Source: Kineothrix sp. IPX-CK (GTDB lineage: Bacteria > Bacillota > Clostridia > Lachnospirales > Lachnospiraceae). From it: a DNA stretch of 64,000 bases. The stretch lies in contig NZ_CP146256.1 in the NCBI RefSeq assembly GCF_039134705.1, positions 1,798,001 through 1,862,000 of the forward strand, read 5' to 3'. Shown here piece after piece: positions 10,076-51,423 of this stretch. The translations under genes and the position numbers were made by a program. The stretch's first letter is position 1. Each line of letters starts with the position of its first letter. A model generated the notes under the pieces. The model was not told the DNA's origin and did no database searches. It saw only the letters and a list, made by a program, of their open reading frames with translations.

Positions 10076-10076
10076 G

Positions 10077-11884: not shown

Positions 11885-11895
11885 GGAGGGAGAGG

Positions 11896-13301: not shown

Positions 13302-13303
13302 AT

Positions 13304-14392: not shown

Positions 14393-14535
14393 TTTAACCT
14401 CTCGTTTACACAAACTTTCATGCAGATGACGTTTTACCTTAATTATAGAAGTGATATCAAACAATAATATAACAAATTGTGTAGAATAAAGCTAGTTAAA
14501 TAATATTATGCCTAAGTCGCCGGACAAAAAATTCA

Positions 14536-14565
14536 TTACCATGCAGAAGTATGACATGCTATAAT
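14536..14565 (+). promoter_or_regulatory. Promoter with overlapping inverted repeat upstream of the pirin gene
   Basis: TTACCA (14536-14541), 18 bp, TATAAT (14560-14565) with an extended TGC. ATGCTAT (14556-14562) and ATAGCAT (14568-14574) form a perfect inverted repeat across the -10, a good place for a repressor. Confidence 0.65.
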
Positions 14566-14634
14566 GGATAGCATAAGAGCATAAATTAGTTTCATGATAT
14601 CATTTATTCCAAAAACAAAAGGAGCTGGATAGTT

Positions 14635-15660: not shown

Positions 15661-15664
15661 TTAA

Positions 15665-16636: not shown

Positions 16637-16724
16637 CTTTCAGCCGTTTTTGAAATTCATCTCGAATATGAGCCGGTTCTATATTAGAAATTTAAGGAGA
16701 ATATAGTAGTAGTAGAGAAAAAAC

Positions 16725-17606: not shown

Positions 17607-17685
17607 AATAACAATCTACCTCCCATTTTTATTTGAACCAAAAGGAGCCTTTTGCGAACATGCGGGAATCCTTGCTCCGATCGTA

Positions 17686-17714
17686 TTGAAAAGTTTATAT
17701 TGTCTTTCTATACT
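17686..17714 (+). promoter_or_regulatory. Sigma-A promoter of the ABC pair
   Basis: TTGAAA (17686-17691), 17 bp, TATACT (17709-17714) in the 185-bp divergent region between the AraC-type gene and the transporter genes. Confidence 0.7.
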
Positions 17715-17791
17715 GATATTGGGTTAGATATAACTAACTATATTTTATATGATTGCAATCAAAATATCAACCAACGGAGGAGTAAAGTGTT

Positions 17792-19585
17792 ATGTACAAT
17801 CAAACAAATAAAAAGACCGGCAATATTAGCTGGCTGTTACAGCTGGCAGGCAAGAAAAAGGTGAATATACTGCTTGCCTGCCTGTTTTCTGTGTCCAGTG
17901 CGATACTTTCTTTTGTACCGTATATTTGTGTGTATTTTATTCTCAGAGAAATATTAAAAGCGCCAAATAATCCTGTGGGAATATCATTTGGTACTGCTGG
18001 TATTTATGCGTGGCTTGCATTGGGTGCAGTAGGCCTTGGACTTTTGTTCTCATTTATATCATCGGTTCTATCTCATGGAGCTGCCTATAAAATTCTATTT
18101 GAGCTGCGCATGAAGTTTGCTGAACACATAAGCGAACTGCCAATGGGGTTTCATACAAGTAATTCAACCGGAAAATTACGAAAACTTATGGATGAAAATG
18201 TCGAAAAAATAGAATTATTTATTGCCCATCAGCTTCCTGACGCGGTAGGCGCTCTGGCATCGCCTGTTGTTATGCTGATTGTTTTATTTCTGTTTGACTG
18301 GAGAATGGGTCTTGCCTGTCTTCTTCCTATCGTTCTTAGCTTTATTGCACAGGCCGGAAACTTATCCAATCCAAAGTCCAGAGAATTTATGGATAGTTTT
18401 CAGGATTTACAGGACAAAATGAACAGCTCGGCCGTGGAGTATGTACGAGGTATCTACGTGGTAAAAGCATTTAACCAAACCGTGTACTCTTTTCGTAAAT
18501 TCCACGATACAATCCTGGAATACAAAGACAGTGCTATCCGTTATACCCACTCGGTAAAAAATACTTACTGCGCCTTTCTTGTGCTTCTTAATTCCGTGTT
18601 TCTGTTTCTCCTTCCTGTGGGGATACTAATTGGAAGCCGTGAACGGGATTATCAGGCATTTGCAATATCTTTCTTATTCTATTTAATTTTTAGTATGGGC
18701 GTTGCCGGACCAGTGTCAAAGCTGATGTATGTGTTTGTACAAAGCTTCATGGTATTATCCAGTATCAAACGAGTGAAAGCTGTGTTCGATACGCCTGTTT
18801 TAAAAAGTGCTGTGAAAGGCGAAGAACCAAAAGGAAATGGCATTTCTTTTGAACATGTTTTCTTTTCTTACAATAAAGATGATGAAAATGAGACTCTTCA
18901 TGATGTGAGTTTTGTAGCAGAACCGGGGCAGGTTACCGCATTGGTGGGTCCCTCCGGCAGCGGCAAAAGTACTATCGCACAATTGATTCCCCGTTTCTGG
19001 GATATTGACAGCGGAAAGATAACCGTCGGAGGGGTAAATATTACGGATATAAAGCCCTCCGATCTGATGGGTGCGGTAAGTTTTGTATTTCAGGATGTTT
19101 TTCTTTTTAAGAAAAGTATTTTGGAAAATATTAAGATTGGAAACGAAAATGCTACTGACGTGCAAGCCATTGAGGCTGCAAAATCTGCCATGTGCCACGA
19201 GTTTATCGAGTCTCTGCCAAACGGATATCACTCCGTGCTGGGAAGTCGTGGGACATATCTTTCGGGTGGAGAACGACAGCGGATTATAATCGCACGGGCT
19301 ATATTAAAAAATGCGCCTATTGTCATTCTGGATGAAGCAACAGCCTTTGCTGACCCGGAGAATGAACGGAAGATCCAGATCGCGCTGGAAAAATTGATGG
19401 AAAATAAAACCGTCATTGTAATCGCTCATCGCCTTTCCACTATTAAAAATGCAGATAAGATCATCGTTGTGGACGATGGGAAGGTAGCGGAAGAAGGGAC
19501 TCACGAAGAACTTATACAGTATGGTGCAAAATACAAGCATATGTGGGATGTTTACAACAGAGCACTCACATGGAGTCTTGCATAA
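17792..19585 (+). CDS. ABC transporter, fused permease-ATPase, subunit 1
   Basis: Exporter-fold half-transporter, 597 aa: six membrane segments in residues about 20-310, then an ATPase domain with Walker A GPSGSGKST, signature YLSGGERQR, Walker B IVILDEATAFAD and the switch His in IAHRLS. DEATAFADPENE in place of DEATSALD is the form common in siderophore-type pairs such as YbtP/IrtA. An AraC-type regulator divergent to it fits that comparison. Forms a heterodimer with the next gene (13 bp apart). Transport of a siderophore or peptide is inferred, not shown. Confidence 0.88.
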   Translation: MYNQTNKKTGNISWLLQLAGKKKVNILLACLFSVSSAILSFVPYICVYFILREILKAPNNPVGISFGTAGIYAWLALGAVGLGLLFSFISSVLSHGAAYKILFELRMKFAEHISELPMGFHTSNSTGKLRKLMDENVEKIELFIAHQLPDAVGALASPVVMLIVLFLFDWRMGLACLLPIVLSFIAQAGNLSNPKSREFMDSFQDLQDKMNSSAVEYVRGIYVVKAFNQTVYSFRKFHDTILEYKDSAIRYTHSVKNTYCAFLVLLNSVFLFLLPVGILIGSRERDYQAFAISFLFYLIFSMGVAGPVSKLMYVFVQSFMVLSSIKRVKAVFDTPVLKSAVKGEEPKGNGISFEHVFFSYNKDDENETLHDVSFVAEPGQVTALVGPSGSGKSTIAQLIPRFWDIDSGKITVGGVNITDIKPSDLMGAVSFVFQDVFLFKKSILENIKIGNENATDVQAIEAAKSAMCHEFIESLPNGYHSVLGSRGTYLSGGERQRIIIARAILKNAPIVILDEATAFADPENERKIQIALEKLMENKTVIVIAHRLSTIKNADKIIVVDDGKVAEEGTHEELIQYGAKYKHMWDVYNRALTWSLA

Positions 19586-38542: not shown

Positions 38543-41500
38543 CTACCTCCTATGAAGTTCTTGTGCTAATGTATTGGGCAATCTTTCGATTATAGCACTA
38601 GAGAGACTATTTGTATCTTGAACACCTTGTAAATAAATATCTCCAACACTTACCTCAACATTTCTCATATTATTTGTGCTGTTATTTACTACATTACTAA
38701 TACTGTTTACCGAATCCGCAATATCACTTAATGGATTCTTCATAGTAGCAACAATATCGAGCGCGTTTGTATTTCTCTCCATATATTCCATAAACTTACG
38801 AAGGTTTTCATTCCCCGGGGCTGTATAGTCAATAGGAACAATGTTAGAACGAGAAGCAGTACCCTCTGCATAAGCATTGTTAGACGCAATCCCCTTACCG
38901 CTAAGAATCTTTTTAGTCTCATCTCCATCGTAAACAATACTGCCTTTTTTCAAGTCTGTAATAGTAGGAGTAGTGAATATCGAATACTGTCCAGTTTCAG
39001 GGTCTACAACCAATTCAGGAGCAACTTCACCAACTAAAGCATTCTTCTCATTACGTGGAAGTCCGTCAGAGCCTTTAGCGTATGCTTTTGCATTCGAAGG
39101 TTTACTAGAGCCACCACCATGACCACCAATACTAATAGATGAATTTAACGCCGTATCAGCCAGATCCTTTATAGCTTTTGCGGCAGCTTCGCACTGAGAC
39201 TGTATAGACGTAGCCATTTCAGTTACAATATCTTTAATGAGATTCGCAATACTTTGGATTGAATTTTCGCCAGTAGCAAATTCATTAAATGATGTTAACC
39301 ATGGGTCTTGTAATTTAGCGGATACTTCATCCCCGCCAGTCTGCATGATATCAACGATGCTACCATCGCCAGCAGATTCGGTTTTAGGTTTAGTATTGGA
39401 AGTAGTAGTTGTGTCCTTGTTTTCTTTAGAAGTTCCACCGCCGCCCACACCAATAATTTCACCAAGTCTAGTTTGCAAACTTTCCCAAGCAGGAACATAT
39501 GTGTCAGTAATATAACTAACCTGATCTTTAAAAGCATCATTTCCAGTTTGCAATGCAGTTTTTAGCTTATCCATCTGCGTTTCAATGATGATAACGGCGT
39601 TTGATATAGCAGTACCCAAACCAGTAAATCCAGTACTCTGAATGTCTTCTCCACCCGTTCCAATAATGGAAGAGAAATTAATCTGTTCAAACTCTTTGCA
39701 CTTAGTTGCTATATTTCCAAATGCCGTAGCAATAGCTTCAAGCTTCTGTGCATATCCTTCTTCTCCGGGAGTGGGGAACTCTAATTTACCAAACAGTGTT
39801 GTCAGTTCATCCAGTAAATCCTTTAATTTTTGAATCTCATCATTAAGTGGAGTAATACTTGCAGTAGTATTAGACGCATTAGTACCAATATCACCAACAG
39901 CAGTAGACGCTTCACCGGCAGATGTGGAAAGTCCTTCAACAGAAGTTGCCGTTTCTTCAACGTCAGTAGAAAGAGGATCAAGCGTTGTTGCTCCAAGATT
40001 CTCGAACGCTCCTTTTGTAGATTCAAGATAACTTACAGATTCTGCACTAACACCGGACAATTGAGATAGTTTACCTACGACCTCATCATTACTTCTGCTC
40101 ATGTCTGCAAGAATACCGACGTAACTATTCTTCAACTTATCAAATTCTTCTGACGAACCACTAAGTAGAACTTCCATGTTGATACCGAGTTCTTGAAGAG
40201 TGGCTTCCATTTGGGCGTTTTCGAAGACCTCACTAAGTTCAGTGAATTTCGACTTAGTTTCTTCTAAATTTAAAATCATGGAATCGAAGTGTTTTTCGAT
40301 CTTTTCGATTTCTGCGTCCCAATAAGCATTCGAAGCATCTAAAGCCTTTTCAAGAGCTTCTTGTTGTTCTTCCAGAACATCACGCTGTTTCTCCAAACCA
40401 TCGATAACCTTTTCAATAGTAGCGATTTCGATATCACGCTTTTTACTTTCAACTTCTTCACGCGCTTCTCGTATGCCAGAAGTGTCAGCTTCGTATGCCA
40501 TTTGACCATCTTTATATACAAGCTGAGTGTTTTGATTCTGCATACGCTCTAAATCGTACTGGGCTTTCTGAAGGTCTATCTCCCTTTGACGAGCATCGGC
40601 CGCCTCGTTTATGGCATCAATAAGTTCTTGTTTTGCGGAGATTTCCTTGTCAATGGCATCTATTTGCTCGTCTAACTCATCGATTTGATTTTGGTAGAAC
40701 TCTTCAGCGGCTTTTTTCTGGGCTTCCATGGACGCAATTTGAGCATCACTTTGTTTTTGGATAGAGTCAATTCGTTTATCAATTTGTTTTGTAATGTAGC
40801 TAAAAGCTGACTCGTATAGAGACTTCATACCTTGGAGATAATTTTTCTCTTGTTCCTGATACTCCTTTAAATACTTTTCTTTCTTGGCATAATATTTTAA
40901 ATACAATTTTCTTAAGCTGTCTAAATATGATTTTTCAGATAAAATGCCTATATCTTTTAACCGATTAAGCTCTGATAACTCGTCTTCAAAGGCTTCTATA
41001 TATTTATCGGCGGCTTCTTTTCCTGCACTTCCAGCCGAACCACTACCCACACTAGCAAAATCAATTTTCACATTATTAACAGAATCATTAATTTCTTTTT
41101 GCAGAGATGCTAGCTCATCATTATAATTAATTGGAACATGTCCGTCTTTATTAGCCTTTTCAAGATTGGCAATTCTTGCAGCAATAGCAGTTTGACCATA
41201 TGCAGTAGCAAGTTCTTTCAGTTTGGAAATTTTATCCTCTACGCTTAAATCAGTATCTCCAAAAACTTGTTCGGCAGATATTAGTTTAAACAGATATTGT
41301 CTAGCAGTTTCTGATGCCCCGGCATGATTTAGAAACGCTAATACTTCATCAGATGTTGCAGTTACTAATTCTTTACCTGTCTGAGCAGCAAACTGTTTTT
41401 CCAGCGCCAATCCTTCAACTTGTGAAGTAAGTTTAGCCATTACAACTTCTTCAGCATTTGCTACACCCAAAGATTCAAGCATAGACGTAACTAATTGTGC

Positions 41501-43096
41501 TGTACTTTCGTCCATGCCGTCAATTGCGTTTGTTCCATTAATTATAGAAGCCGCAAAAGTATCAAAAGCACTTTGAGCTTTAGTAGCAGTAGTGGCGGGA
41601 TTTGTAAGAACTTTTGCTAAATCATCAAAAGAAGATAAATCAATATCTATACCGTCAATTTCGTTTATCTCTTCAATAGCTGATTTGATGTCTTTAAGCA
41701 TAGAGAGATCAACGTTTTCTGGTGAAAATCCGTCCTCAGTGAAGATATTTTGATATGCTTTCTGCAAAGAATCAAATGCGGGTTTAAGTTGACTATTGAG
41801 TTGGTCGATGAGAGAAGATACAGATCCAATAGAAAGTGGAGTTTCATTTGTTTCCTCTACGCCAAGTTTAAGTTCTTCTACTTTGGCTTTTAAGTCTTCA
41901 ACTGAGGTAATAGAATCTGGGTCAACATCAAGTTCTAGTATTAATTTTAGATCTTCTTCGCTAAAAGTACCCATGTCTGAATCAGAAATGTTTCCAAACT
42001 TGTTAGAAGCTCTTCTTACTAATCCGTTTTTCTCACCCGGATTATATGTGTTAGTTGCCTTCTGAATAGAAAACTGAATACCCAAAGCATCTTGATACAT
42101 CTGATTCCAATAGTCTGCCATTTCTTGCGCAGATGCTAAATCTTTACCAGTGAGCAACCCACTATCGACAGCTTCTTGTGCGGTCTGGGCATTTTCAAGA
42201 TATTCACCTTGTTTAATGACTAATTCATCTTGATACTCTTGTAATTCTTTTAGAGAATTTGCCTCTTTTTCTTGTATAAAGGCCATTCTTCTTTCAAGAT
42301 ATTCACTCTTTGCAGTACGTCCTTCTTCTAATTCGCTTTGTTCTTTTACAAGATCTCTGAGCTTTTCTGATAAGCCTAAATACTTCTCGATTTCTTTTGT
42401 TGACCTTGTGGAAACACCGGCAAGATTATCGGCATCCGGTCTAGTATTTAACTCTCTCGATTTTTTATTAAGCAGACTGTCCTCATCAAATGCATCTGTC
42501 CAGTTACCTGTACCAATTTGCTCTTTATATAGTTGTTTTTGCTCAATCTCAAGAATTTGTTTGTCTAAATCTAATCTGCGTTCAAGATAAGATAATCTAT
42601 CTTTTTCATAGGACGATAAACTATCTTTCTCCTTTAATGAATCGTATTCACTATTTAATTCTTCGTAGGATGCTTTTAAAGAATCAACTTTGTCCCTTTG
42701 CTCTTCAACTGTTACATTTAAATTATCCCATACCTTTGATAGGGTTTGCACTGCAACATTTATTGCAAGCATGATTGCCATATTTGCGGCTACGGATTTA
42801 AGAGTTGCCGATACCTTTTTGAGATTGGCAGAAAAGGTGGAAGATGAATCAGAGGCCGATTTCAAGTATTGATTATATTTTTCTGTAACATCACCAGTAC
42901 CGTCCCATGTTTTAAGGAATTTCTTTAAGCTATCATCGGCAATTTCGAGTTCACCAACAAAACCATCAGTAAAATCAGGAGAAATGCCGATATCTAAACT
43001 TTCATTTACACTTTTTTGAATTTCAGATAATGTCTTTTTAGTTTCTTCACTTACTTCTGGCAGTTCAGTTTTTAATTTACTTAACCAAGTTGTCAC
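38543..43096 (-). CDS. Tape measure protein, C-terminal part (split gene)
   Basis: At least 1,517 aa of the protein that sets tail length and helps DNA entry. The open frame extends upstream to about 43150; the displayed GTG at 43096 has only a weak ribosome site. Features: hydrophobic stretch AANMAIMLAINVAVQTL near the N terminus, long coiled coils (residues about 120-330 and 720-950), and a low-complexity C terminus (GIASNNAYAEGTASRSNIVP). Together with the fragment at 49690-51423 it would make a tape measure of roughly 2,080 residues. In-frame joining of GLGLT to NFDKDGGVTTW would restore it. Confidence 0.85.
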   Translation of the reverse strand: MTTWLSKLKTELPEVSEETKKTLSEIQKSVNESLDIGISPDFTDGFVGELEIADDSLKKFLKTWDGTGDVTEKYNQYLKSASDSSSTFSANLKKVSATLKSVAANMAIMLAINVAVQTLSKVWDNLNVTVEEQRDKVDSLKASYEELNSEYDSLKEKDSLSSYEKDRLSYLERRLDLDKQILEIEQKQLYKEQIGTGNWTDAFDEDSLLNKKSRELNTRPDADNLAGVSTRSTKEIEKYLGLSEKLRDLVKEQSELEEGRTAKSEYLERRMAFIQEKEANSLKELQEYQDELVIKQGEYLENAQTAQEAVDSGLLTGKDLASAQEMADYWNQMYQDALGIQFSIQKATNTYNPGEKNGLVRRASNKFGNISDSDMGTFSEEDLKLILELDVDPDSITSVEDLKAKVEELKLGVEETNETPLSIGSVSSLIDQLNSQLKPAFDSLQKAYQNIFTEDGFSPENVDLSMLKDIKSAIEEINEIDGIDIDLSSFDDLAKVLTNPATTATKAQSAFDTFAASIINGTNAIDGMDESTAQLVTSMLESLGVANAEEVVMAKLTSQVEGLALEKQFAAQTGKELVTATSDEVLAFLNHAGASETARQYLFKLISAEQVFGDTDLSVEDKISKLKELATAYGQTAIAARIANLEKANKDGHVPINYNDELASLQKEINDSVNNVKIDFASVGSGSAGSAGKEAADKYIEAFEDELSELNRLKDIGILSEKSYLDSLRKLYLKYYAKKEKYLKEYQEQEKNYLQGMKSLYESAFSYITKQIDKRIDSIQKQSDAQIASMEAQKKAAEEFYQNQIDELDEQIDAIDKEISAKQELIDAINEAADARQREIDLQKAQYDLERMQNQNTQLVYKDGQMAYEADTSGIREAREEVESKKRDIEIATIEKVIDGLEKQRDVLEEQQEALEKALDASNAYWDAEIEKIEKHFDSMILNLEETKSKFTELSEVFENAQMEATLQELGINMEVLLSGSSEEFDKLKNSYVGILADMSRSNDEVVGKLSQLSGVSAESVSYLESTKGAFENLGATTLDPLSTDVEETATSVEGLSTSAGEASTAVGDIGTNASNTTASITPLNDEIQKLKDLLDELTTLFGKLEFPTPGEEGYAQKLEAIATAFGNIATKCKEFEQINFSSIIGTGGEDIQSTGFTGLGTAISNAVIIIETQMDKLKTALQTGNDAFKDQVSYITDTYVPAWESLQTRLGEIIGVGGGGTSKENKDTTTTSNTKPKTESAGDGSIVDIMQTGGDEVSAKLQDPWLTSFNEFATGENSIQSIANLIKDIVTEMATSIQSQCEAAAKAIKDLADTALNSSISIGGHGGGSSKPSNAKAYAKGSDGLPRNEKNALVGEVAPELVVDPETGQYSIFTTPTITDLKKGSIVYDGDETKKILSGKGIASNNAYAEGTASRSNIVPIDYTAPGNENLRKFMEYMERNTNALDIVATMKNPLSDIADSVNSISNVVNNSTNNMRNVEVSVGDIYLQGVQDTNSLSSAIIERLPNTLAQELHRR

Positions 43097-43107
43097 TCCA
43101 CCATCTT

Positions 43108-43124
43108 TGTCAAAGTTTACAACG
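43108..43124 (+). repeat. Left inverted repeat of the tape-measure insert
   Basis: TTGTCAAAGTTTACAAC; matches the minus strand at the other end (TTGTCAAAGTTTTACAAG) with one inserted T and one mismatch. Also holds the -35 of the promoter at 43117. Confidence 0.8.
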
Positions 43125-43145
43125 TTAATGTAAAATGGTATAATC
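43117..43145 (+). promoter_or_regulatory. Sigma-A promoter of the zinc-ribbon gene
   Basis: TTTACA (43117-43122), 17 bp, TATAAT (43140-43145). The -35 is part of the left inverted repeat. Confidence 0.75.
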
Positions 43146-43188
43146 TGTATATATTACTTGGAATAATAAATACAAATTTGGAGGGGAA

Positions 43189-43659
43189 ATGAAAGATAAC
43201 GATAAATTAGTAATTTGCAAAAAATGCATAAATGATTTTAAAGAAATTCCATATAGCAATCCATTTCAATATAGAGGATTATATACCAATTTTAAAGTTC
43301 CAGAAGATAATATTTGCTCAAAATGTAAAACTGAACTTTATGAAACAAAAGTTACAGGATCAGAAATAAAAATATTATTTAATACATCACACGATAACGT
43401 GTTTCTACAGGCTATGATTGATCTTAAAGAGTCCGACCCTATAGAATATCAATTAAAATTAACACAATTTAATTCACAAAATCAGACAAAGGAAATAGAA
43501 GAGGATAAAAATAATATCCCTAAATGTCCTACTTGTAATAGTACCAATTTAAAAAAGATATCAACCACAGCGAAAGCAACAAATACAATTATGTTTGGAC
43601 TGCTAGGAACTAAAAGACACAAATCGTTCCACTGTAATTCGTGTGGATATGAATGGTAG
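43189..43659 (+). CDS. Zinc-ribbon protein
   Basis: 156 aa. Two cysteine pairs in the N-terminal half (CKKC, CSKC) and a C-terminal zinc ribbon CPTCNSTNLKKIST...FHCNSCGYEW, a module widespread in Firmicute phage and chromosomal proteins. Function unknown; may bind nucleic acid or protein. GGAGGGG ribosome site; first gene of the rightward accessory unit. Confidence 0.7.
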   Translation: MKDNDKLVICKKCINDFKEIPYSNPFQYRGLYTNFKVPEDNICSKCKTELYETKVTGSEIKILFNTSHDNVFLQAMIDLKESDPIEYQLKLTQFNSQNQTKEIEEDKNNIPKCPTCNSTNLKKISTTAKATNTIMFGLLGTKRHKSFHCNSCGYEW

Positions 43660-43678
43660 GTAGAGGATAGGAGGGGTT

Positions 43679-44188
43679 ATGTCTTTTATAGATGAACTAA
43701 ATAAAAATACAAAAACACCAGAACAAGTAGCAGATGAAAAATGGGAAGCTGAAAAAGAAATAATATCAAATTGTGCTTATCGTGATTATTTTGGGATTAA
43801 ACAAGCACTTATCAATGAAGCCCAAAACGGAAAGTATTCTCTTATATCTAATAATAAAAAATGTGTATCTGCAAAATATGAATGTTCATATTTACGTGAA
43901 TGTATTAAAAAAACATGCTCTAGTAATCCTACTGGAAGAATTGGAACAAGTAATTACAAGTCCAACGAAAGAGTGGATTATAAAATCGAGAGATATAAAC
44001 AATACAATTGTTATATAGATACTATTAAAAATTTTGCCGTAAAAGATAACATAAAAATTGAACCTTCTTTTTATGAACTTGGTATTCTATCAAAAGAGAC
44101 GCGTATTAGTATGCCATATACATATAAGGGGTATGGAGTAATTACTCACAAAATAAAAGTATATTTATCTTGTAGCATTGAATATTAG
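43679..44188 (+). CDS. Accessory phage protein, unknown
   Basis: 169 aa, 19 bp after the zinc-ribbon gene with AGGAGGGG. Starts MSFIDELNKNTKTPEQVADE; a central Cys-rich stretch (CVSAKYECSYLRECIKKTC) could bind metal. Beta-rich C terminus. The start motif (Q-V-A-x-E-K-W-E-A) recurs in small phage-encoded proteins, but no function is known. Confidence 0.55.
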   Translation: MSFIDELNKNTKTPEQVADEKWEAEKEIISNCAYRDYFGIKQALINEAQNGKYSLISNNKKCVSAKYECSYLRECIKKTCSSNPTGRIGTSNYKSNERVDYKIERYKQYNCYIDTIKNFAVKDNIKIEPSFYELGILSKETRISMPYTYKGYGVITHKIKVYLSCSIEY

Positions 44189-44225
44189 TTGGGATGCGCT
44201 AATTGTAAACATTTAAATATCAAAA

Positions 44226-44259
44226 GAACCTCTAATTTTGATGTTAGAGGTTCCTTTTT
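44226..44259. terminator. Terminator after the 43189-44188 unit
   Basis: GAACCTCTAA (44226-44235) / TTAGAGGTTC (44244-44253) then CTTTTTG; may also act for the leftward gene at 44284. Confidence 0.85.
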
Positions 44260-44283
44260 GTATTATCCGAACAAAGGTTTTGG

Positions 44284-44475
44284 CTACCAATATATACCAA
44301 TATATGATAAAATTTTACATATAAACATTTTTAGCTTTGATTCTCCGAGATCACTTAATACATCGTAATACGTTTTAATAAAGCGGTTAATACTTTTTCG
44401 ACGTTCACATGATGGAATAAATCCATTAGCAATTTGATCATCAATTAAAATTTTTACGTCTGAGATATTTAACAT
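44284..44475 (-). CDS. 63-aa protein, unknown
   Basis: MLNISDVKILIDDQIANGFI..., with AGGAG 6-7 nt upstream of the ATG at 44475, which supports translation. Helical, no membrane segment. Its start lies only 12-25 bp from the divergent gene to the right, so the two leaders overlap. Confidence 0.5.
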   Translation of the reverse strand: MLNISDVKILIDDQIANGFIPSCERRKSINRFIKTYYDVLSDLGESKLKMFICKILSYIGIYW

Positions 44476-44499
44476 ATAAATTCTCCTATGGGTGTTAAT

Positions 44500-45264
44500 A
44501 TGAATAGTTTCAATGATTTTTATATGAATACATACAAAGAATTTTATAATGCTTGTAAAGACAATAGTGTTCTATCAAGCTCTCCGATACCTTGTGTAGT
44601 TGATAATACAATGCGTACGGGCGGAAAGCATGAGAATGGTACTGTGTTTTTGAAATCGGATAACATATCAGATAAAGATGCACAACAAGTTACCAGAAGC
44701 ACTATTTATCATGAATTAACGCATTATTATGATCAAAAAATGTTTGAAAAACATGGGTATTCAAATAAGGATATAAATACTTTGATGTTAACATTTTCAG
44801 AAATACACGCATCATACAATGCATTATTAGTGTTTTTGGGTTATAAAAATTTAGTTATAAATAGAAAAATAGCTATCACGAAAACTGTATATAAGGATTT
44901 TTCATTAATGCAGTTCGCTGCGTACAATGTGGCGACTCGTACAAATAATATGAATAACATCATTGGATTTAAAGAGTTTATGTATCTATTAGGAGAAAAA
45001 AGAGCCTTTGTCAAAGTATCATCCGACCCTCTAGTGATAAACAGGGCGTTTTCTACCAAACATTTACCACAACTTATACGTGATGAAATAGTGTCCATAG
45101 ACAAGCTTATTAATATCAATTCCTTTGAGAATATAGACGTGGATAAGATTTCTATCCTTAGATTAGGAGCTGAAAATAAACTTACGCAGTTAAGCTATAA
45201 GGAACTACTAAAAGATGCTCCGACCGATTTACAAAAGGAAATACAAGACTTATTTGGAATTTAA
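44500..45264 (+). CDS. Putative zinc metallopeptidase-like protein (HELTH)
   Basis: 254 aa from ATG 44500; an in-frame ATG at 44488 is possible and neither has a strong ribosome site. YHELTHYYDQ (His71, Glu72, His75) is an HExxH zinc site, with Glu101 in FSEIHASYNALL a possible third ligand, as in small gluzincins. No signal peptide, so it would act in the cytoplasm, in principle on regulators in the manner of ImmA, but no repressor partner is adjacent. Confidence 0.6.
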   Translation: MNSFNDFYMNTYKEFYNACKDNSVLSSSPIPCVVDNTMRTGGKHENGTVFLKSDNISDKDAQQVTRSTIYHELTHYYDQKMFEKHGYSNKDINTLMLTFSEIHASYNALLVFLGYKNLVINRKIAITKTVYKDFSLMQFAAYNVATRTNNMNNIIGFKEFMYLLGEKRAFVKVSSDPLVINRAFSTKHLPQLIRDEIVSIDKLININSFENIDVDKISILRLGAENKLTQLSYKELLKDAPTDLQKEIQDLFGI

Positions 45265-45270
45265 ATATTT

Positions 45271-45294
45271 AAGGACTGATTTAAATCAGTCCTT
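45271..45294. terminator. Perfect 24-bp palindrome after the metallopeptidase gene
   Basis: AAGGACTGATTT / AAATCAGTCCTT, 7 bp after the stop codon. Likely terminator for one or both convergent genes although the T-run is poor. Confidence 0.55.
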
Positions 45295-45330
45295 AATTTA
45301 TCATTTATAAGCAGCTTATATTATTATGTA

Positions 45331-45492
45331 TTAGACTATAATCACGCGCCAACGCAACGTATCTCTATATTGATTCTCTATTTCTGAAATTATATCCTTC
45401 GGAAAATATCCATCATTATGTATTTTTGCATAAATGCCTGAAATATCGAGAATAACAACTCTAGTCACATCACTTCTGATTTCAGCAACCAT
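45331..45492 (-). CDS. 53-aa protein, unknown
   Basis: GGAGG lies 7 nt before the ATG at 45492. MVAEIRSDVTRVVILDISGI... ending in RWRVIIV. No family recognised. Short beta-alpha-beta pattern. An AACATAT-N5-ATATGTT inverted repeat lies 31 bp upstream. Confidence 0.5.
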   Translation of the reverse strand: MVAEIRSDVTRVVILDISGIYAKIHNDGYFPKDIISEIENQYRDTLRWRVIIV

Positions 45493-45522
45493 TCTGCTAC
45501 CTCCACGTCAACACAAGTCTCA

Positions 45523-45541
45523 AACATATATTTCATATGTT
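45523..45541 (-). promoter_or_regulatory. Inverted repeat AACATAT-N5-ATATGTT
   Basis: Perfect 7-bp inverted repeat upstream of the 53-aa gene; candidate operator. Spacing differs from a LexA box. Confidence 0.4.
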
Positions 45542-45742
45542 CGTTTTATAGTTTAGTAGTTAACAATGGTGCGCCCCTTTGTATAGTTTAATTATATCAA
45601 AATATTCAGAATTTTCAATGGGGGATATTCGTAATGACTTGTTTCGATTGTGAAAATTACATATTTTTTGTTAAAGTTGCACAAATTGCCAACCGCTTAA
45701 GTTAAATTATCAACTTGAATGGTAAAATAAAGTTATTCTACA
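45542..45742. other. Non-coding gap
   Basis: A/T-rich, nothing recognisable apart from short A/T runs; separates the 53-aa gene from the LytTR pseudogene. Confidence 0.3.
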
Positions 45743-46493
45743 TCAAAATTTTCTACAGTGTCTTTTATATTTTTCAGTTAATTCTTTTATGAATCTCCTA
45801 GAAATAGGACATTCGCGCCCATTGTTCAGTATCGCGATTTGGCTAAAATTATTTATTGCCGTGATATGTTCTATGTTAACCACATATGATTTATGATTTA
45901 TGACATTGAAAAAATCTATCATCTAACTTGTCCAAAATAGAAGAGAGGTCATAAGATAAATTTGTTATTTTAGTTTTTTCAGCAATGGTAATTGTATGAG
46001 ATTCCGCTTTTATATAGTATATATCCGATAGGATAAAAATAACTGGTTTTTTAACAATTTCTAACACTAATGGCTTGGATAGATTTTCAACTTTTTTACT
46101 TAGGGTATAAGCTTCTGTTAAACATGATAGTATTCGATTATCAAATTCTTTAATATCTGATTTGTCTATAAAATCCATAGCTTGAATCCGATATTCAAAA
46201 GTCTTCATGTTTAATTCTGTATGTGATGTAATGATAACTATGCAAGCTCTTGGGTCTATTTTACGAATCCTTTGGGCAAGAACGAAACCGTCAATATCTG
46301 CTTTTAGATCAATATCAAGAAAATATAAAGAGTTTTTTCTATTATTACTTAAATATTCTAGTAATGTGTGTGGATTTGTAGTAGCACAAACCACCTTCAT
46401 ATCAAGATTTTTAATCTCTATATGCTTGTTAATTGTTCTTTTTATTTGTTCTAGTTTTTCTGGGATGTCTTCGCAAATATAAATTGGCAACAT
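45743..46493 (-). pseudogene. LytTR-family response regulator, broken by a 7-bp tandem duplication
   Basis: AgrA/ComE-type regulator: receiver domain (PIYICEDIPEKLEQIKR, phosphorylatable Asp in YFLDIDL, IVIITSHTEL) and LytTR DNA-binding domain (DIYYIKAESHTITI). The current frame stops after FFQCHKS at 45891. GATTTAT is present twice in tandem at 45888-45901; deleting one copy continues the frame as CHKSYVVNIEHITAINNFSQ to a stop at 45743, completing the LytTR fold. Start ATG 46493 follows AGGA. No histidine kinase is next to it. Confidence 0.82.
45888..45901. repeat. 7-bp tandem duplication inside the regulator gene
   Basis: GATTTAT-GATTTAT. The second unit shifts the reading frame; slipped-strand loss or gain of one unit would switch the gene on or off. 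Confidence 0.85.
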
Positions 46494-46551
46494 AATAGTC
46501 CTCATATTATAAGATAATGTTTTGCTTATACCTTACTATATGAGGACTATT
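46494..46551 (-). promoter_or_regulatory. 14-bp perfect inverted repeat at the regulator start
   Basis: AATAGTCCTCATAT (46494-46507) and ATATGAGGACTATT (46538-46551). The inner arm contains the ribosome-binding GAGGA of the LytTR gene, so a hairpin in its mRNA would hide it; alternatively a protein-binding site. Confidence 0.6.
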
Positions 46552-46575
46552 TGTTATAGTGGTAATATATGGTAT

Positions 46576-46887
46576 CTATATAACCATTACCCATCTACAC
46601 TCTATAGGGAAGAATACCAATTTAAATTCTTGCATGAGCCCTCCAATAATAGCCTTACATAGATATTCTATAGAGGGTATCCCAGAATAGTTTTTGCTTT
46701 CATGTGTAATAACTTTAATATTTTTAATGGTTTGAATTTCCCCGTCTTCACCTTCGAATTTTATGAGGATGGGACGAGAGTTACACTTACTCGTAAACCA
46801 ACAATCACAAGCAACCTCAAACTGCTTACCATTAATTGTTCCGGCATCAGTCATTTCTGTATTTATACCGATTCCAAATGCCGACAT
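46576..46887 (-). CDS. Protein encoded with the Y-family polymerase, unknown
   Basis: 103 aa, MSAFGIGINTEMTDAGTING, predicted beta-rich. GAGGAGG ribosome site; starts 12 bp after the polymerase stop, so it belongs to the same SOS-type operon. Similar short proteins follow UmuC-like genes in Firmicute mobile elements. Function unknown. Confidence 0.6.
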   Translation of the reverse strand: MSAFGIGINTEMTDAGTINGKQFEVACDCWFTSKCNSRPILIKFEGEDGEIQTIKNIKVITHESKNYSGIPSIEYLCKAIIGGLMQEFKLVFFPIECRWVMVI

Positions 46888-46899
46888 AATTAACCTCCT

Positions 46900-48162
46900 C
46901 TACATAACATCTATTTTACTATAATCAACAGTTCGTTTTTCTCGTGAAATTCCCCCTCCTAGATGATCGATAGGTGTATTTATAAAGGTTGCCCTTTTAA
47001 CCGCGTCAATCCCGTATCTCAAACGTATTTTGTCAATTGCTGTGTCCAGCCTTTCTTGCTTTTCAAAATCTATATTGTTAATAAAGGATAGTTGTCTTGC
47101 CTCACTGTCAGAAAAAATCCTAGTAGTATGAACTCCTAAATGTCTTATTGGACTACCATCCCATAATTCATCAAATAAAGTACACGCGTATTGGTGGATT
47201 TCATTTGTAATATTGGTTGGTGTTCCCATAACCATTTGATGTCCAGCATACCTAAACTCGGAATCCTTTATTCCTATTGAGATAACGCCGGCTTTGACCT
47301 TATCTTTTCTTAGTCTGGCAGCAACTGTTTCTGAAAGTGATAGTAGTACCTTTTTTGCGGTTACAGTGTCTTTTGCATCAAACGAGATTGTGGAGGAATT
47401 ACCATATCCTTTATTGTCTGGACGTATTGCTTCTACACTGGAAAAATCATAGCCATTTGCAAAAGCCCAAATAATTTCTCCGTGTTTTTTAAAGTAATGT
47501 CTTAACATAATAGGGTCTGAGTGTGCTAATTGTCCGATTGTAGTAATTCCTAGATTTAATAATTTCTTGTTTGTCGCCCTTCCTACATAAAACAAATCAG
47601 AAACTGGAAGATTCCACATCTTGTTCGGTATTTCATCGGGGAAAAGCGTGTGCACCAGATCAGGCTTTCGAAAGTCTCCCGCCATTTTCGCCAAGAGCTT
47701 GTTGGTCGATACACCGATGTTGACGGTAAATCCCAGTTCATCTCGGATTCTGTCTTTTATCTGATTAGCCACTTTTATCGGTTCACCCCAAAGTAAACGC
47801 GTACCAGTCATATCTATAAAACACTCATCAATGCTATACTGTTCTACGGTAGGAGAGTACTCACGTAAAATACTTACAAATGCTTTAGATGATTGCTCAT
47901 ATAAATTATAATTCGGCGGCACAATGACGAGATTAGGACATTTCTTAAGTGCTTCGGGGATAGATTCTCCTGTTTGTATTTTATATTTTTTAGCTGGAAT
48001 TGATTTCGCCAAAATAATACCATGCCTTTGTTCAATACTTCCACCAACCGCTGATGGTATGCTTCTTAAGTCGATTTTTGACATTAAATGTTTAAGTCTG
48101 TATACCGCTTCCCAAGATAAAAATGCCGAATTAGCATCGATATGATATATAATCCTTTCCAT
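46900..48162 (-). CDS. Y-family (UmuC/DinB-like) DNA polymerase
   Basis: Translesion polymerase, 420 aa from ATG 48162 (GAGGTGG 6 nt upstream; the longer open frame runs through the promoter). Catalytic motifs YHIDANSAFLSWE and YSIDECFIDMTG, VNIGVSTNKLLAKMAGDF, helix-hairpin-helix region (LLNLGITTIGQLAHSD) and little-finger domain. QLSFI near residue 365 may be a sliding-clamp motif. A perfect LexA box sits in its promoter. No umuD-like gene is present, so it works alone. Confidence 0.92.
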   Translation of the reverse strand: MERIIYHIDANSAFLSWEAVYRLKHLMSKIDLRSIPSAVGGSIEQRHGIILAKSIPAKKYKIQTGESIPEALKKCPNLVIVPPNYNLYEQSSKAFVSILREYSPTVEQYSIDECFIDMTGTRLLWGEPIKVANQIKDRIRDELGFTVNIGVSTNKLLAKMAGDFRKPDLVHTLFPDEIPNKMWNLPVSDLFYVGRATNKKLLNLGITTIGQLAHSDPIMLRHYFKKHGEIIWAFANGYDFSSVEAIRPDNKGYGNSSTISFDAKDTVTAKKVLLSLSETVAARLRKDKVKAGVISIGIKDSEFRYAGHQMVMGTPTNITNEIHQYACTLFDELWDGSPIRHLGVHTTRIFSDSEARQLSFINNIDFEKQERLDTAIDKIRLRYGIDAVKRATFINTPIDHLGGGISREKRTVDYSKIDVM

Positions 48163-48186
48163 ACTTGCCACCTCTTTATGAGGAAG

Positions 48187-48215
48187 ATTATATCGAACAT
48201 TTGTTCCTTTGGCAA
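48187..48215 (-). promoter_or_regulatory. SOS promoter of the Y-family polymerase with LexA box
   Basis: Minus strand TTGCCA (48210-48215), 17 bp, TATAAT (48187-48192). GAACAAATGTTC (48195-48206) is a perfect GAAC-N4-GTTC box occupying the spacer, so LexA would block RNA polymerase. Confidence 0.88.
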
Positions 48216-48251
48216 GTGGTAATTTTTTCTCATTATTTTTTAGTACAAAGT

Positions 48252-48280
48252 TTGACAATATTTACCATATTACTTATAAT
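48252..48280 (+). promoter_or_regulatory. Strong sigma-A promoter of the toxin gene
   Basis: Consensus TTGACA (48252-48257), 17 bp, TATAAT (48275-48280); divergent from the polymerase promoter. Confidence 0.82.
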
Positions 48281-48395
48281 TCTTACATAGAGTGCTACCA
48301 AATACGGGTAGGCGGTTATTCTCCAATCAGAGAGTAAAAGCTCTGTTCACATAGAAACCTTTCGGGGTATTTATACGAGAGGAGGACATTTTCTT

Positions 48396-48482
48396 ATGGT
48401 AAGTTTTTCGGATTTATTCACCTATACATTAGTGTTGATTGCCATTATTACATTATGTAATAGTAATAGAAAAGAAAAATAG
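48396..48482 (+). CDS. Type I holin-like toxin, 28 aa
   Basis: MVSFSDLFTYTLVLIAIITL followed by CNSNRKEK: a single membrane helix with a basic tail, as in Firmicute holin-like (TxpA/BsrG/Fst-type) toxins that depolarise the membrane. GAGAGGAGG lies about 9 nt upstream. A leader of about 110 nt precedes it, including CGGGTAGGCGGTTATT, which can pair with AATAGCCGCC at the stop codon and so may delay translation. An antisense promoter faces it. Confidence 0.78.
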   Translation: MVSFSDLFTYTLVLIAIITLCNSNRKEK

Positions 48483-48587
48483 CCGCCCCGTCCTGAGAAA
48501 ACGAGCGACTATGATTCTTTAGTCAATTTATTTTCAGAGCAACCGTCTTGCTTTACGGTAGCACTTTTATAACAAATTTAAATACTT
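48470..48587 (-). ncRNA. Antisense RNA antitoxin (predicted)
   Basis: From the minus-strand promoter at 48592-48620 toward the toxin 3' end; ends at a GC-rich hairpin (AGTCGCTCGT / ACGGGGCGGCT) followed by TATTTTTC, overlapping the last codons of the toxin. Length about 115 nt; would base-pair with toxin mRNA as in txpA/RatA. Confidence 0.65.
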
Positions 48588-48591
48588 AATA

Positions 48592-48620
48592 AGTATAGAA
48601 TATTTTCTAAATAATTTCAA
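48592..48620 (-). promoter_or_regulatory. Antisense promoter opposite the toxin
   Basis: Minus strand TTGAAA (48615-48620), 17 bp, TATACT (48592-48597). Near consensus, just beyond the SRAP gene stop and pointing at the toxin. Confidence 0.75.
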
Positions 48621-48629
48621 GTGCCAATC

Positions 48630-49211
48630 TTATATAATTAAAGAAGTTTGCTCATACTCGCGTATCTGTTTAAGCTGTACGGGGGTTTTATGAAGAATAA
48701 AGTCGGTAAATCCGTTGTCATATATCCAATTTTCTAATTCATTATTCTCCAATATTAAGGGCATACGGTCATGTATATTTACCACAGATTCGTTTGCGTT
48801 AGTAGTTAATATGACAAACCTATTTTCGTCATCATATGATTTCCATATTCCGGCCATATATAAGATATTATTGTCTCTTCTCTCAAAACGTATCTTATTT
48901 TTTGATGAATCCCACTCGTAAAAACCTGCGGCTGGCACTATACATCGAGTCTCCATAATGGGCTTACTAAAAGTCCTCTTTTCTTTGACAGTCTCACTCC
49001 GGGCATTAATGATTACGCCTTTTTTCGCATAGTTAGGAAAGCCCCACATCATAGTAGATAATGCAAGAGAATCCAGATTGTTATGGATAATCGGGACTTG
49101 GTTCGTTGGATAAACATCGCCTTTCTTATGCGCCAACTTCTCGCTTACTTGGCGTACAATTTTCTCTATTTCGTCAACAGTTTCGTCGCTAATATAATAC
49201 CTTCCGCACAT
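48630..49211 (-). CDS. SRAP domain protein (YedK/HMCES type)
   Basis: Crosslinks to abasic sites in single-stranded DNA and shields them from breakage. 193 aa with every key residue: Cys2 (MCGRY), Asn69 (NARSE), Glu99 (GFYEW) and His147 (IHDRMP). The N-terminal Met must be removed so that Cys2 is free. Lies next to a translesion polymerase and a toxin gene, in keeping with reported links of SRAP genes to SOS functions. Has an extended -10 promoter (49253-49261). Confidence 0.93.
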   Translation of the reverse strand: MCGRYYISDETVDEIEKIVRQVSEKLAHKKGDVYPTNQVPIIHNNLDSLALSTMMWGFPNYAKKGVIINARSETVKEKRTFSKPIMETRCIVPAAGFYEWDSSKNKIRFERRDNNILYMAGIWKSYDDENRFVILTTNANESVVNIHDRMPLILENNELENWIYDNGFTDFILHKTPVQLKQIREYEQTSLII

Positions 49212-49252
49212 AGTTTCACCTCACTATATGATTATTATGTCCATTTATGATG

Positions 49253-49261
49253 ATTATAGCA
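49253..49261 (-). promoter_or_regulatory. Extended -10 promoter of the SRAP gene
   Basis: Minus strand TG-C-TATAAT. AAACAATTGTTT (49268-49279), a palindrome resembling a degenerate LexA box, lies just upstream. Confidence 0.5.
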
Positions 49262-49294
49262 GAAGATAAAACAATTGTTTGTTAATTTATAAGT

Positions 49295-49715
49295 CAATTT
49301 ACCTCTTATACTTCCAAGATATAAGGGGATTGTGTAATATGTGCAAGTAGGGCAGTAGAAAATACTGTTCGCATCCCTATTCGCTTCTCAGGGCTTTTCG
49401 CCCAGGTTACGGATCATGTATATTGCAATAGAATATAATTACGCCTATATTCCATCGTGTCTTGTCAGCCTCTCGCGCGATATATTATGAAATTACACTT
49501 TCAATCTAACATATATCGCGTCGGTGATTACCATTTTCGTACAATATGTACTTAGTGCGTTATAGATTTACTATAACGATACCCATTATAGGCTTACGGC
49601 TTCCCCCGATATTCGACATTTTTAGGATTAATTAATCCAAGGATTAGTCTGCTCGATGTACGACCAAATCGCAGATCATTTCTATTCGGTTATATAGCAT
49701 TATTATAAAACCTTA
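49295..49715 (-). ncRNA. Hairpin-rich non-coding region, candidate large structured RNA
   Basis: About 400 bp without a gene, between the SRAP gene and the tape-measure break. On the minus strand: CGTTATAG-TAAAT-CTATAACG; GCGATATAT...ATATATCGC (49477-49520); GGGC-GAAA-AGCCC; AGGG...CAGTA-TTTTC-TACTG-CCCT; GGATTAATTAATCC. It would be transcribed by the late operon directly after the tape-measure N-terminal part. I could not match it to a known class: no clear group I P7 or group II domain V was seen. Confidence 0.45.
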
Positions 49716-51423
49716 TGTAAATGGGCTTGTAAAACTTTGACAAGTAAATTGTTAACCCTAATCCCTTTGCGCCTAATACAGCGCCTATTCCAGACAATAG
49801 TGGTGTTAAAATACCAACTTTATCAATTATAGAATCTATGATATTAATAGCACCCGTTCCGGAATCTACAATACCTTTCAGAAAATTGGAGTTTAGTATA
49901 GTCTGAGATAACGACTCGAACGCAGCTTCAAATTGTTTTGTCTTTGCCTCAAGTGAATCCATCCATTTTTCTTGTTCTGCATATGCTGAACCAGCAGAAG
50001 CCATAGTTGCATCTAATGCCTTTTGTACTTGTCCAGACTGAAAGGCCTGAAGAATAGCCGCACCTTGATTACCCCTTTGCTTACCAAACAATGTCTCTAG
50101 CAAATCGGCTTGTGTAGTCTGGTCTAGTTTATCATATACCTCTGATACATCTTCCAAAATATCATAATAATCTTTGAACTTAGTTGGGTCAGCTTCATTC
50201 ATAATATCCACTTGACCTTGTGTAAGATTTAAAATATGTGTTTGAATCTTGCTGACAGACTCTAAATCTTCATATTCTTCGCCAAGTTCTTCTAATGCGC
50301 CCTTCATACCCATTACGCGCATCTGACCCACCTTCAAGGCGTTGCCTAACTCACCTGCTTCTTGAGTAATTTCTGCACCACCAGTAAGTAGAGCCAGAGT
50401 TTTTTCTAATGTCATACCACCAAGAGCCATAGCAGATGCAGCATTACTTACCCCATCACCCAGACCCGCCGCCGTCACAGCAAATTCATTTCCTAATTTA
50501 TTAAAAGAATCGACTATTGTAATAGCATCCGATGTTTCAAGATTAAATGCCTTCATAGTTGTAACGATATCTGATACTGCCGTATCATCGTCTACTTCTC
50601 CTACGTTTGCATAAATAGAAGATATTTCTGCGAGTTTTGCTGAATCATCAATTGAAAACCCAAGTTTCGCCCAGTTAGCAGATTGCTCCACTAAACTAGA
50701 AACAGAACGTCCTAATTTTTGCGCTTTATCGTTGGCACTGTCAAGAAACTGATTATATTTAATACTTGTTTCGTCAGTTACTTTATACAAATTTGTCATT
50801 GCTGTATCTACTTTAAAAACAGCATCTGACATTTTTCGCAATGAGTTAACAGCCCCCATTACAATCGAAGTAGCACTAACCCATGTAGCAAAAGAACCAA
50901 TTCCACTAGCGATAGAATCTTTTAAAGAACGTCCTAGTTTCCCTGTCGTTCTCATTTGTGAATCAAGAGTTTTAAATTGAGTATTAATATTTCTTATGTC
51001 GTCTTTTGTTAAATCATCAGCAGATTCTATAGTATGTATCCATTCTAATAGCTGATTTTTAGCGTCTTTTGTTATCTTGGTATTATTCGACATGTAATTC
51101 TGGAACTTCGTCATAGCGGAAACACGATCCATTTCGGAGGCTAGTTTTTTAGCTGCGACATTAGCTTCATTCATAGATACGGTTAACGCCTTAAAAACAT
51201 CATTCCCGGATATTTTAAAATCTCCACCAAGCGAATTATTTAAGGTGTTCGCAATTAGTTTGCTAACTTCTTTTAAGTTGTTTTTAATAGAAGCGGTTTC
51301 TAATTGGGGAACAATCTTTACCATATTGTTATTTACAATCTTTTGAACTTCCGATATTTCTTTTGTAATGCCGGATTTCTCTAAAACAGTTTGTATAATA
51401 ACTGAAAATTGGTTTGAATCCAT
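49690..51423 (-). CDS. Tape measure protein, N-terminal part (split gene)
   Basis: 577 aa. The N-terminal phage tape-measure region (MTNLYKVTDETSIKYNQFLD, QANWAKLGFSIDDSAKLAEIS-like core, GMKGALEELGEEYEDLESVS, LLETLFGKQRGNQGAAILQAF) is clearly of the TP901-type family. It stays native to about GAVLGAKGLGLT, then enters the insert and ends after 19 foreign codons. As it stands it lacks the long coiled-coil rod, which is encoded at 38543-43096, so the tail could not assemble unless the two parts are rejoined or assemble as two chains. Confidence 0.85.
   Translation of the reverse strand: MDSNQFSVIIQTVLEKSGITKEISEVQKIVNNNMVKIVPQLETASIKNNLKEVSKLIANTLNNSLGGDFKISGNDVFKALTVSMNEANVAAKKLASEMDRVSAMTKFQNYMSNNTKITKDAKNQLLEWIHTIESADDLTKDDIRNINTQFKTLDSQMRTTGKLGRSLKDSIASGIGSFATWVSATSIVMGAVNSLRKMSDAVFKVDTAMTNLYKVTDETSIKYNQFLDSANDKAQKLGRSVSSLVEQSANWAKLGFSIDDSAKLAEISSIYANVGEVDDDTAVSDIVTTMKAFNLETSDAITIVDSFNKLGNEFAVTAAGLGDGVSNAASAMALGGMTLEKTLALLTGGAEITQEAGELGNALKVGQMRVMGMKGALEELGEEYEDLESVSKIQTHILNLTQGQVDIMNEADPTKFKDYYDILEDVSEVYDKLDQTTQADLLETLFGKQRGNQGAAILQAFQSGQVQKALDATMASAGSAYAEQEKWMDSLEAKTKQFEAAFESLSQTILNSNFLKGIVDSGTGAINIIDSIIDKVGILTPLLSGIGAVLGAKGLGLTIYLSKFYKPIYIRFYNNAI
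49727..49743 (-). repeat. Right inverted repeat of the tape-measure insert
   Basis: Minus strand TTGTCAAAGTTTTACAA. In the late transcript it would pair with GTTGTAAACTTTGACAA at the other end of the insert, bringing the two coding parts together. Confidence 0.8.

Follow-up and report, generated by a model that had tools for sequence, protein, structure and literature searches.

How can a prophage keep a tail gene that is cut in two by 6.6 kilobases (kb) of other genes? The question is raised by a locus of Kineothrix sp. IPX-CK (Lachnospiraceae), where the window, i.e., the whole stretch of DNA analysed, comprises 64,000 nucleotides (nt) of contig NZ_CP146256.1 (positions 1,798,001 to 1,862,000), and the interrupted gene encodes a phage tape measure protein. 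The split noticed in the original prediction is confirmed by family scans, in which both parts match tape measure families: the N part (open reading frame, ORF, 49690-51423) matches PF10145 (3.7e-23) and phrog_4211 (3.3e-73), and the C part (ORF 38543-43096) matches phrog_167 (2.3e-11). Judged by sequence comparison, the insert is very probably a cargo-carrying group I intron, with the exons being joined at the RNA level. The gene is made up as follows.

49755..51423, minus strand: exon 1 of the tape measure gene, 556 codons plus 1 nt, 3′ end ...GGGATTAGGGT
43123..49754, minus strand: putative group I intron, 6,632 nt, preceded by U and with G as its last base
38543..43122, minus strand: exon 2 of the tape measure gene, beginning with TTGTAAACTTTGAC

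The length of the insert is not a multiple of three, so the two parts are out of frame on the chromosome and fall into one frame after its removal; the earlier statement that the C part resumes in the same phase is thus incorrect. Joining of the exons as GGGU|UUGUAAAC gives a single stop-free frame of 2,082 codons (1669 + 4580 nt). Initially, the N-terminal part was thought to end after GLGLT plus 19 foreign codons and the C-terminal part to begin with NFDKDGG; the break itself has now been moved to GLG|FVNFDKDGG (49755/43122), since homologous exons set the junction in the window as GGGATTAGGGT, intron, TTGTAAACTTTGAC (GLG|FVNFD). In related loci (designated by L numbers) whose introns belong to the same subtype, the junctions, with residues read by eye, are GLG|FVNND (L038), GWG|IVNYD (L075), GSG|IFNYD (L021), and GIG|IVQYD (L086). 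A U before the 5′ site and a terminal G are present in all five same-subtype introns with both ends (window, L038, L021, L075, and L086), L078 being outside this count because its second intron end is absent. The splice sites were chosen within a few bases using the U/G rules and homology and therefore are not independent of the frame, while the P1 and P10 pairings are. It had also been asked whether coding sequence is missing between the two parts. Comparison with the uninterrupted gene of L003 gives no sign of loss: there, the match to the N part stops (at N residue 556) 207 nt before the match to the C part sets in (at C-part residue 76).

The pairing of the intron with both exons involves three elements.

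49723-49726, minus strand: guide sequence GCCC, pairing with exon 1 GGGU (P1)
49727..49743, minus strand: intron strand of the extended P10 helix, TTGTCAAAGTTTTACAA, immediately 5′ of the guide GCCC
43107..43122, minus strand: exon 2 strand of the extended P10 helix, TTGTAAACTTTGACAA

The positions 43108 and 49743, first taken for the limits of the interruption, coincide to within one base with the outer ends of the P10 helix. The inverted repeats reported at the ends of the insert do exist (matched by 1 of 40 dinucleotide shuffles and by none of 2000 plain exon 2 shuffles at the exact place), and they are the P10 helix formed by exon 2 with the intron beside the guide. P10 was tested at the exact junctions of 13 introns in all, which superseded tests with loosely placed windows. 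Within the subtype of the window, the own exon 2 scores highest for each of the five introns (shuffle P 0.0005-0.0015). In the 5 × 5 table, own-pair scores are 15.5, 15.0, 11.5, 14.8, and 14.0, and each exon 2 favours its own intron, the next best scores being 13.5, 10.1, 10.5, 13.5, and 7.3. In a sister subtype, P is 0.002 in seven of the eight introns tested (0.09 in L060). The own-best test is not discriminating there because exon 2 is identical in four introns and L026 scores 20.6 with the L064 exon against 20.1 with its own.

P1 in the sister subtype is informative in another way, as the guide and the exon change together in 9 of the 11 loci tried. The exon/guide pairs are GCU/GGC in L004, L028, L047, and L066, GAU/GUC in L026 and L060, and GGU/GCC in L046 and L052, with L059 having GGU/GUC via a G.U pair; the guide was not located in the other two of these loci, L061 and L064. 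The junction frame in this subtype is KNF(A/D/G) or near | (Q/R/H)LK, and uninterrupted L003 reads KNFEQLK. Both parts of the gene in the window are long open frames, as they would be if they were separate genes for a two-chain tape measure. Such an arrangement is scarcely credible, given that P1 and P10 pair with exon sequence, that continuous homologues exist, and that relatives have their tape measure genes interrupted at several positions, in some cases inside the conserved domain.

The predicted ribozyme core lies near the 5′ end of the intron.

49411..49623, minus strand: ribozyme core P3-P4-P5-P6-P7-P3′-P8-P7′, with the P7 5′ strand GGCTG at 49466-49470 and P7′ CATGATC at 49412-49418

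Core alignments comprise six sequences of the window subtype and 11 of the sister subtype. A 26-nt stretch, TCGAATATCGGGGGAAGCCGTAAGCC, is common to all six, with one change in L086; GAGAGRCUGAC occurs in six of six, AAYAUACAGUCC in four, and AAUAUACAUGAUCC in the window and L038. The P3–P8 fold of the window subtype has 96.2% of 236 cells paired and double changes in 7 of 40 pairs, with a covariation of 0.223 against 0.142 in shuffled alignments. For the sister subtype, pairing is found in 97.6% of 790 cells, 36 of 72 pairs have double changes, and the covariation is 0.405 compared to 0.169 (shuffled) and 0.058-0.080 (slid). A 19-nt RNA motif from the window matched four viral stretches, all of which adjoin the N part of a tape measure gene. 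A search with model R1, which represents the window subtype and predates the finding of L086, gave no new member in 45 sources (one match with E 0.89 was dropped), one new member (G314) among 392 genomes of the order, and none among 391 genomes of the class; the subtype is rare.

Several observations weigh against a functional group I intron. An Rfam group I match is absent at the gathering threshold in seven loci, and none is found with E up to 5 in positions 42500-50300 and 49200-49790 of the window or in L004 11540-12130; thus, the class assignment rests on the junctions, the pairing, and the fold. The structures were drawn from the same sequences that were used for the pair counts, and further pair types are within the shuffle range (31/500 in the sister subtype and 41/500 in the window subtype). 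Double changes in P3 and P7 are found in 3/5 and 1/5 pairs in the sister subtype and in none in the window subtype. The early end-pairing test with loosely placed windows put only 5 of 34 records above the 95% level of swapped controls and three above the 99% level. In the corresponding shuffle test (40 shuffles), 4 of the 34 records were beyond all shuffles (L026, L042, L046, and L052), while the score was reached once in the window, L034, L047, and L064, twice in L028, and at least five times in the other 25, including L038, L075, L021, and L004, where the exact-junction tests found the helix. Moreover, positions 43000-49900 bear six terminator-like sites, against an expectation of 2.9, and transcription must pass them; one (45807-45820) is on the tape measure strand. 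Finally, P7′ is CAUGAUC in the window and L038 as opposed to CAGUC in L021, L075, L078, and L086, and the five P7 pairs in the former two need two bulged bases.

The P7′ variant leads to the suggestion that the copy is dead, i.e., that a group I intron has lost splicing here through the two extra bases and that no full tape measure is made. The frameshift in a LytTR cargo gene (see below) fits decay. This explanation is nevertheless unlikely: both exons are open, and L038, although diverged (N parts about 34% identical in protein, cores 76% identical), has the same variant together with a pairing P8 and an exon-adapted P10. P8 has been rewritten between the window and L038 and by eye still pairs, with one mismatch in L038; this and the exon-fitted P10 are taken as a sign that the variant may work.

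Removal at the DNA level is another option. Elements such as skin and spsM sit inside genes and are excised by a recombinase, and the insert might be removed in the same manner during induction. Besides the inverted repeats, the presence of tyrosine recombinase (Phage_integrase) genes speaks for excision and against splicing: one lies in the same prophage about 20 kb from exon 1 (L079 7489-8439), and in L004 (8060-9376) and L005 (8649-9701) such a gene ends just before the tape measure gene. However, as was noted from the start, the insert lacks a recombinase: none of its eight scanned proteins matches a recombinase or a homing endonuclease family, and no recombinase family is among the matches listed for the cargo of other loci. 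The sole transposase-named match in the insert is that of a zinc-ribbon protein to the IS1595 zinc-ribbon model (E 0.0099, below the cut-off). Furthermore, the short direct repeat TTAAC at both ends yields a stop codon when used, and the two arms of the inverted repeat lie in exon 2 and in the intron next to the guide, where P10 is expected, and track the exon sequence. Excision is accordingly very improbable.

The large size of the insert and its structured 5′ RNA, along with an IS200-type TnpA elsewhere in the prophage, could also bring to mind a group II intron, an IStron, or an intein. Inteins are excluded by in-frame stop codons, there is no Rfam group II match, the insert encodes neither a reverse transcriptase nor TnpA or TnpB, and P1, P10, and the fold are of the group I type, which leaves this group of explanations with a negligible share of the probability. 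IStrons carry IS605-type transposases as cargo, and no IS605-type transposase is present in the window insert. The likeness to the IStron CdISt1 lies in the combination of a group I ribozyme with a long non-ribozyme part (excerpts of PMC3984707). The original prediction had left the choice between a dead prophage, reunion by splicing or excision, and a two-chain protein; on comparative evidence, RNA splicing has the best support, and the dead copy is less likely.

If the insert is spliced as a group I intron, the following sequence of events may be proposed. During late transcription, the RNA of the insert would fold and exon 1 GGGU would pair with the guide GCCC to form P1. Guanosine triphosphate (GTP) bound in P7 would then cut after the U of exon 1, and the freed exon 1 would attack after the terminal G, guided by the long P10 helix that exon 2 forms with the intron, to give one tape measure mRNA of 2,082 codons. 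Since the intron stretch leaves the mRNA, it can carry genes in either direction with the tail gene unbroken. The cargo in the window (DNA-repair-like, regulatory, and zinc-ribbon genes) would probably be expressed in the lysogen from its own promoters. What the sequences themselves show is the arrangement and its recurrence, the exon-specific pairing, the conserved fold, and the turnover of cargo; we infer that the intron splices in the cell, that the cargo is expressed, beneficial, and selected for, and how such an intron would move.

The interruption recurs in related phages. Distant tblastn relatives of the N part come from phages of Bacillus, Lactococcus, Enterococcus, and Enterocloster and from an SPbeta-like Staphylococcus phage. 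The N-part search (four viral contigs) and the N-part alignment (14 bacterial contigs) together gave 18 loci; the frame ends at or near the same spot in 13, is continuous in four (L002, 2517 amino acids (aa); L003, 2139 aa; L073; and L074), and ends too early to judge in L072. Among the 13, the second tape measure part was not found in L062. L004 and L005 are broken at about the same place as the window and have different genes in the gap, including a protein with a choline-binding repeat in L004 and a 306-aa protein in L005, which is taken for the Abi_2 member of the cargo family scan. A search with the zinc-ribbon family led to 40 viral loci, in many of which the tape measure gene has one or more interruptions.

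Altogether, in 34 records at or near the site (some of them related, e.g., L068, L069, and L071), the gap spans 0.4-10.2 kb, and its genes change from record to record and occur on both strands; the number of ORFs of 85 aa or more ranges from 0 to 12. The ends in this table are approximate, and the large gaps of L030 and L034 may contain another exon; L037 and L062 were left out as having no long second frame, and L040, L058, and L078 end before the second frame. Introns with both ends set range from 864 nt (L060) to 7,728 nt (L038). By analogy with the 6 + 11 core-aligned sequences, the other gaps may be introns as well. The core of L061 is of the sister subtype, and its gap is devoid of ORFs reaching 85 aa.

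The intron in the window comprises eight ORFs, on both strands as originally claimed and confirmed in the ORF list.

48630..49211, minus strand: SRAP-family protein, 193 aa (PF02586, 1.5e-42)
46900..48258, minus strand: Y-family DNA polymerase (ImpB/MucB/SamB family), 452 aa (phrog_1268, 3e-95)
46576..46887, minus strand: 103-aa protein, with no match found in family scans
45891..46505, minus strand: LytTR response regulator (family scan), frame interrupted at a tandem CATAAAT repeat
44488..45264, plus strand: HExxH protein, 258 aa, with a weak M76 peptidase match (E 0.0023, under the curated cut-off)
44284..44475, minus strand: 63-aa ORF, with no match found in family scans
43679..44188, plus strand: 169-aa protein, with a 49% relative beside a zinc-ribbon gene near tape measure matches in L022/L023
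43189..43659, plus strand: zinc-ribbon gene, antisense, 156 aa (family relatives)

The remainder of the LytTR regulator can be read in another frame, down to about 45740. The frameshift at the CATAAAT repeat may reflect decay or may serve as an on/off switch driven by the repeat.

In the other loci, the cargo turns over. Family scans covered 125 ORFs and then 85 of them (at least 85 aa), after subtraction of seven from the window and 33 zinc-ribbon or nearest antisense ORFs. Among the matches listed are Abi_2, ToxN, two AAA_15/AAA_21 ATPases, two GmrSD_N, KwaB, AIPR, five PemK/MazF, NYN, PBECR nucleases, two S24 repressors, two KilAC antirepressors, and acetyltransferases; PADLOC names among the matches listed include OLD, GajA, and others. 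The label "defence" is given by family name. Neither HNH, GIY-YIG, nor LAGLIDADG families are among the matches listed for the 85 cargo ORFs (67 of 69 family rows, E up to 0.001), and a crude endonuclease motif screen of the 125 gave no match.

Eleven gaps occur at other places in the gene (near residues 255, 372, and 441, and one more), and eight of these have a sense ORF that is 300 aa or longer. One of the eight proteins is of the NUMOD1/I-HmuI type, three match DUF4379, CapR, or DUF723 above the cut-off, and four match nothing above it. Several of these gaps look like usual homing introns. Each of the following holds one longer sense ORF of a homing-endonuclease-like or unknown type.

L026 15957-17243: other-site gap
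L042 14002-16491: other-site gap
L052 13854-15297: other-site gap
L058 1355-2791: other-site gap
L025 11430-12637: other-site gap
L070 11138-12788: other-site gap
L028 12500-14087: other-site gap
L059 10936-12760: other-site gap

The most recurrent gene is the one at the exon 2 side. The window, L004, and L005 have in common a zinc-ribbon gene on the opposite strand, and an antisense ORF near exon 2 is present in 33 of the 34 records, ending in a zinc ribbon in 32, where no more than about 100 nt separate the start of the gene from that of the second frame. L021-L060 were recruited through the zinc-ribbon gene itself, and its frequency among them therefore proves nothing; among the 12 records recruited through the N part (L004, L005, L061, and L063-L071), it is present in 10, being absent in L061 and L063. 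A profile search of PDB with the family gave weak, generic zinc-finger-type matches, the alignment used including one non-zinc-ribbon row (L064:12442-12999). A promoter-like site precedes the gene in the window.

43116..43144, plus strand: promoter-like site TTTACA-17-TATAAT upstream of the zinc-ribbon gene, with hexamer 1 in exon 2 and hexamer 2 in the intron

The site scores 11 of 12 and straddles the 3′ splice site. Elsewhere, the scores are 11 in L021, 10 in L038, 9 in L075 and L086 (reached by 13% and 28% of shuffles), and 7 in L005 (75%). In L021, three tandem zinc-ribbon paralogues lie beside exon 2 (8552-10441), as if a specificity gene were duplicating. In L022 (about 9799-17987), several zinc-ribbon genes are found between pieces matching the start of the C part, which would fit a gene with several introns of this kind or with duplicated exons.

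The surrounding prophage is labelled here as SPbeta-like, on the basis of its tape measure relatives and of its RdRP-type, recombinase, GIY-YIG/NUMOD3, and TnpA genes. A 686-aa protein encoded in L079 (14387-16444, minus strand) has an RdRP-family match (1.1e-06) and presumably corresponds to the YonO RNA polymerase of SPbeta; a phage polymerase of this type, we assume, may be able to pass the terminator-like sites in the intron. The IS200-type TnpA (Y1_Tnp, 7.9e-42) is encoded in L080 (402-809, minus strand), and an ORF beside it resembles TnpB by eye. A free-standing GIY-YIG/NUMOD3 gene (L079 13355-14209, minus strand) is located about 26 kb from exon 1. It could supply a trans-acting homing partner, by analogy with the collaborative homing treated in the excerpts of PMC10448857.

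A comparison with other systems shows which features are familiar. Accessory genes change at one site in the defence or moron hot spots of P2/P4-type prophages. The present locus resembles them in having a single site with changing accessory and defence-like genes in both directions, and differs in that the site is an intron-like gap inside a late structural gene. The tape measure gene of phage ICP1 has several introns and is spliced at the RNA level, as demonstrated by RNA-seq and reverse transcription PCR (RT-PCR), and the intron content varies between isolates while the junctions stay (excerpts of PMC10448857). In the same excerpts, the ICP1 introns hold HNH homing endonuclease genes, whereas here introns with both ends set are 0.9-7.7 kb long and have several cargo genes on both strands, an antisense zinc-ribbon gene, and no classical endonuclease family among the matches listed. 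Introns of Cluster J mycobacteriophages, proven by RT-PCR, share the U before the 5′ site, the 3′ G, and the location in virion (capsid, tail) genes, and that of LittleE has its endonuclease gene on the other strand; they differ in size (265 and about 820 base pairs) and in bearing one endonuclease gene or none (excerpts of PMC3706429).

Thus, the expectation that splicing of such a gene would be new does not hold in view of ICP1 (PMC10448857, as excerpted), while multi-gene cargo on both strands with no classical homing endonuclease gene does seem to be new. Accounts of phage group I introns (excerpts of PMC3984707 and PMC10448857) present ribozymes that carry no more than one or two endonuclease genes, and a group I intron with multi-gene non-endonuclease cargo was not found in the literature searched, most subscription journals and preprints being outside its scope.

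A more general scheme, which we regard as about evenly poised between right and wrong, is that in large SPbeta-like phages, mostly of Clostridia, the tape measure intron is a standing docking site. One end would be occupied by a self-splicing part of about 450 nt and the other by the antisense zinc-ribbon gene (in some cases with a promoter across the 3′ splice site), with exchangeable genes for lysogeny and anti-phage defence between them, the zinc-ribbon protein being a built-in partner in mobility, immunity, or splicing control that replaces the homing endonuclease. If true, islands of several kb with genes running both ways, many of a defence type, would represent a new manner of hosting accessory genes in a packed phage genome, namely within a late gene that is essential to the phage. 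Tail genes that look broken in prophage annotations would become whole, and those who hunt for defence genes would have a marked place to look. The recurrent zinc-ribbon gene raises a testable question on its role. In the genome of L018, a second tape measure match (3137008-3138168) is a frame of only 438 aa, followed downstream by a zinc-ribbon match on the opposite strand, which is possibly the same arrangement in another prophage.

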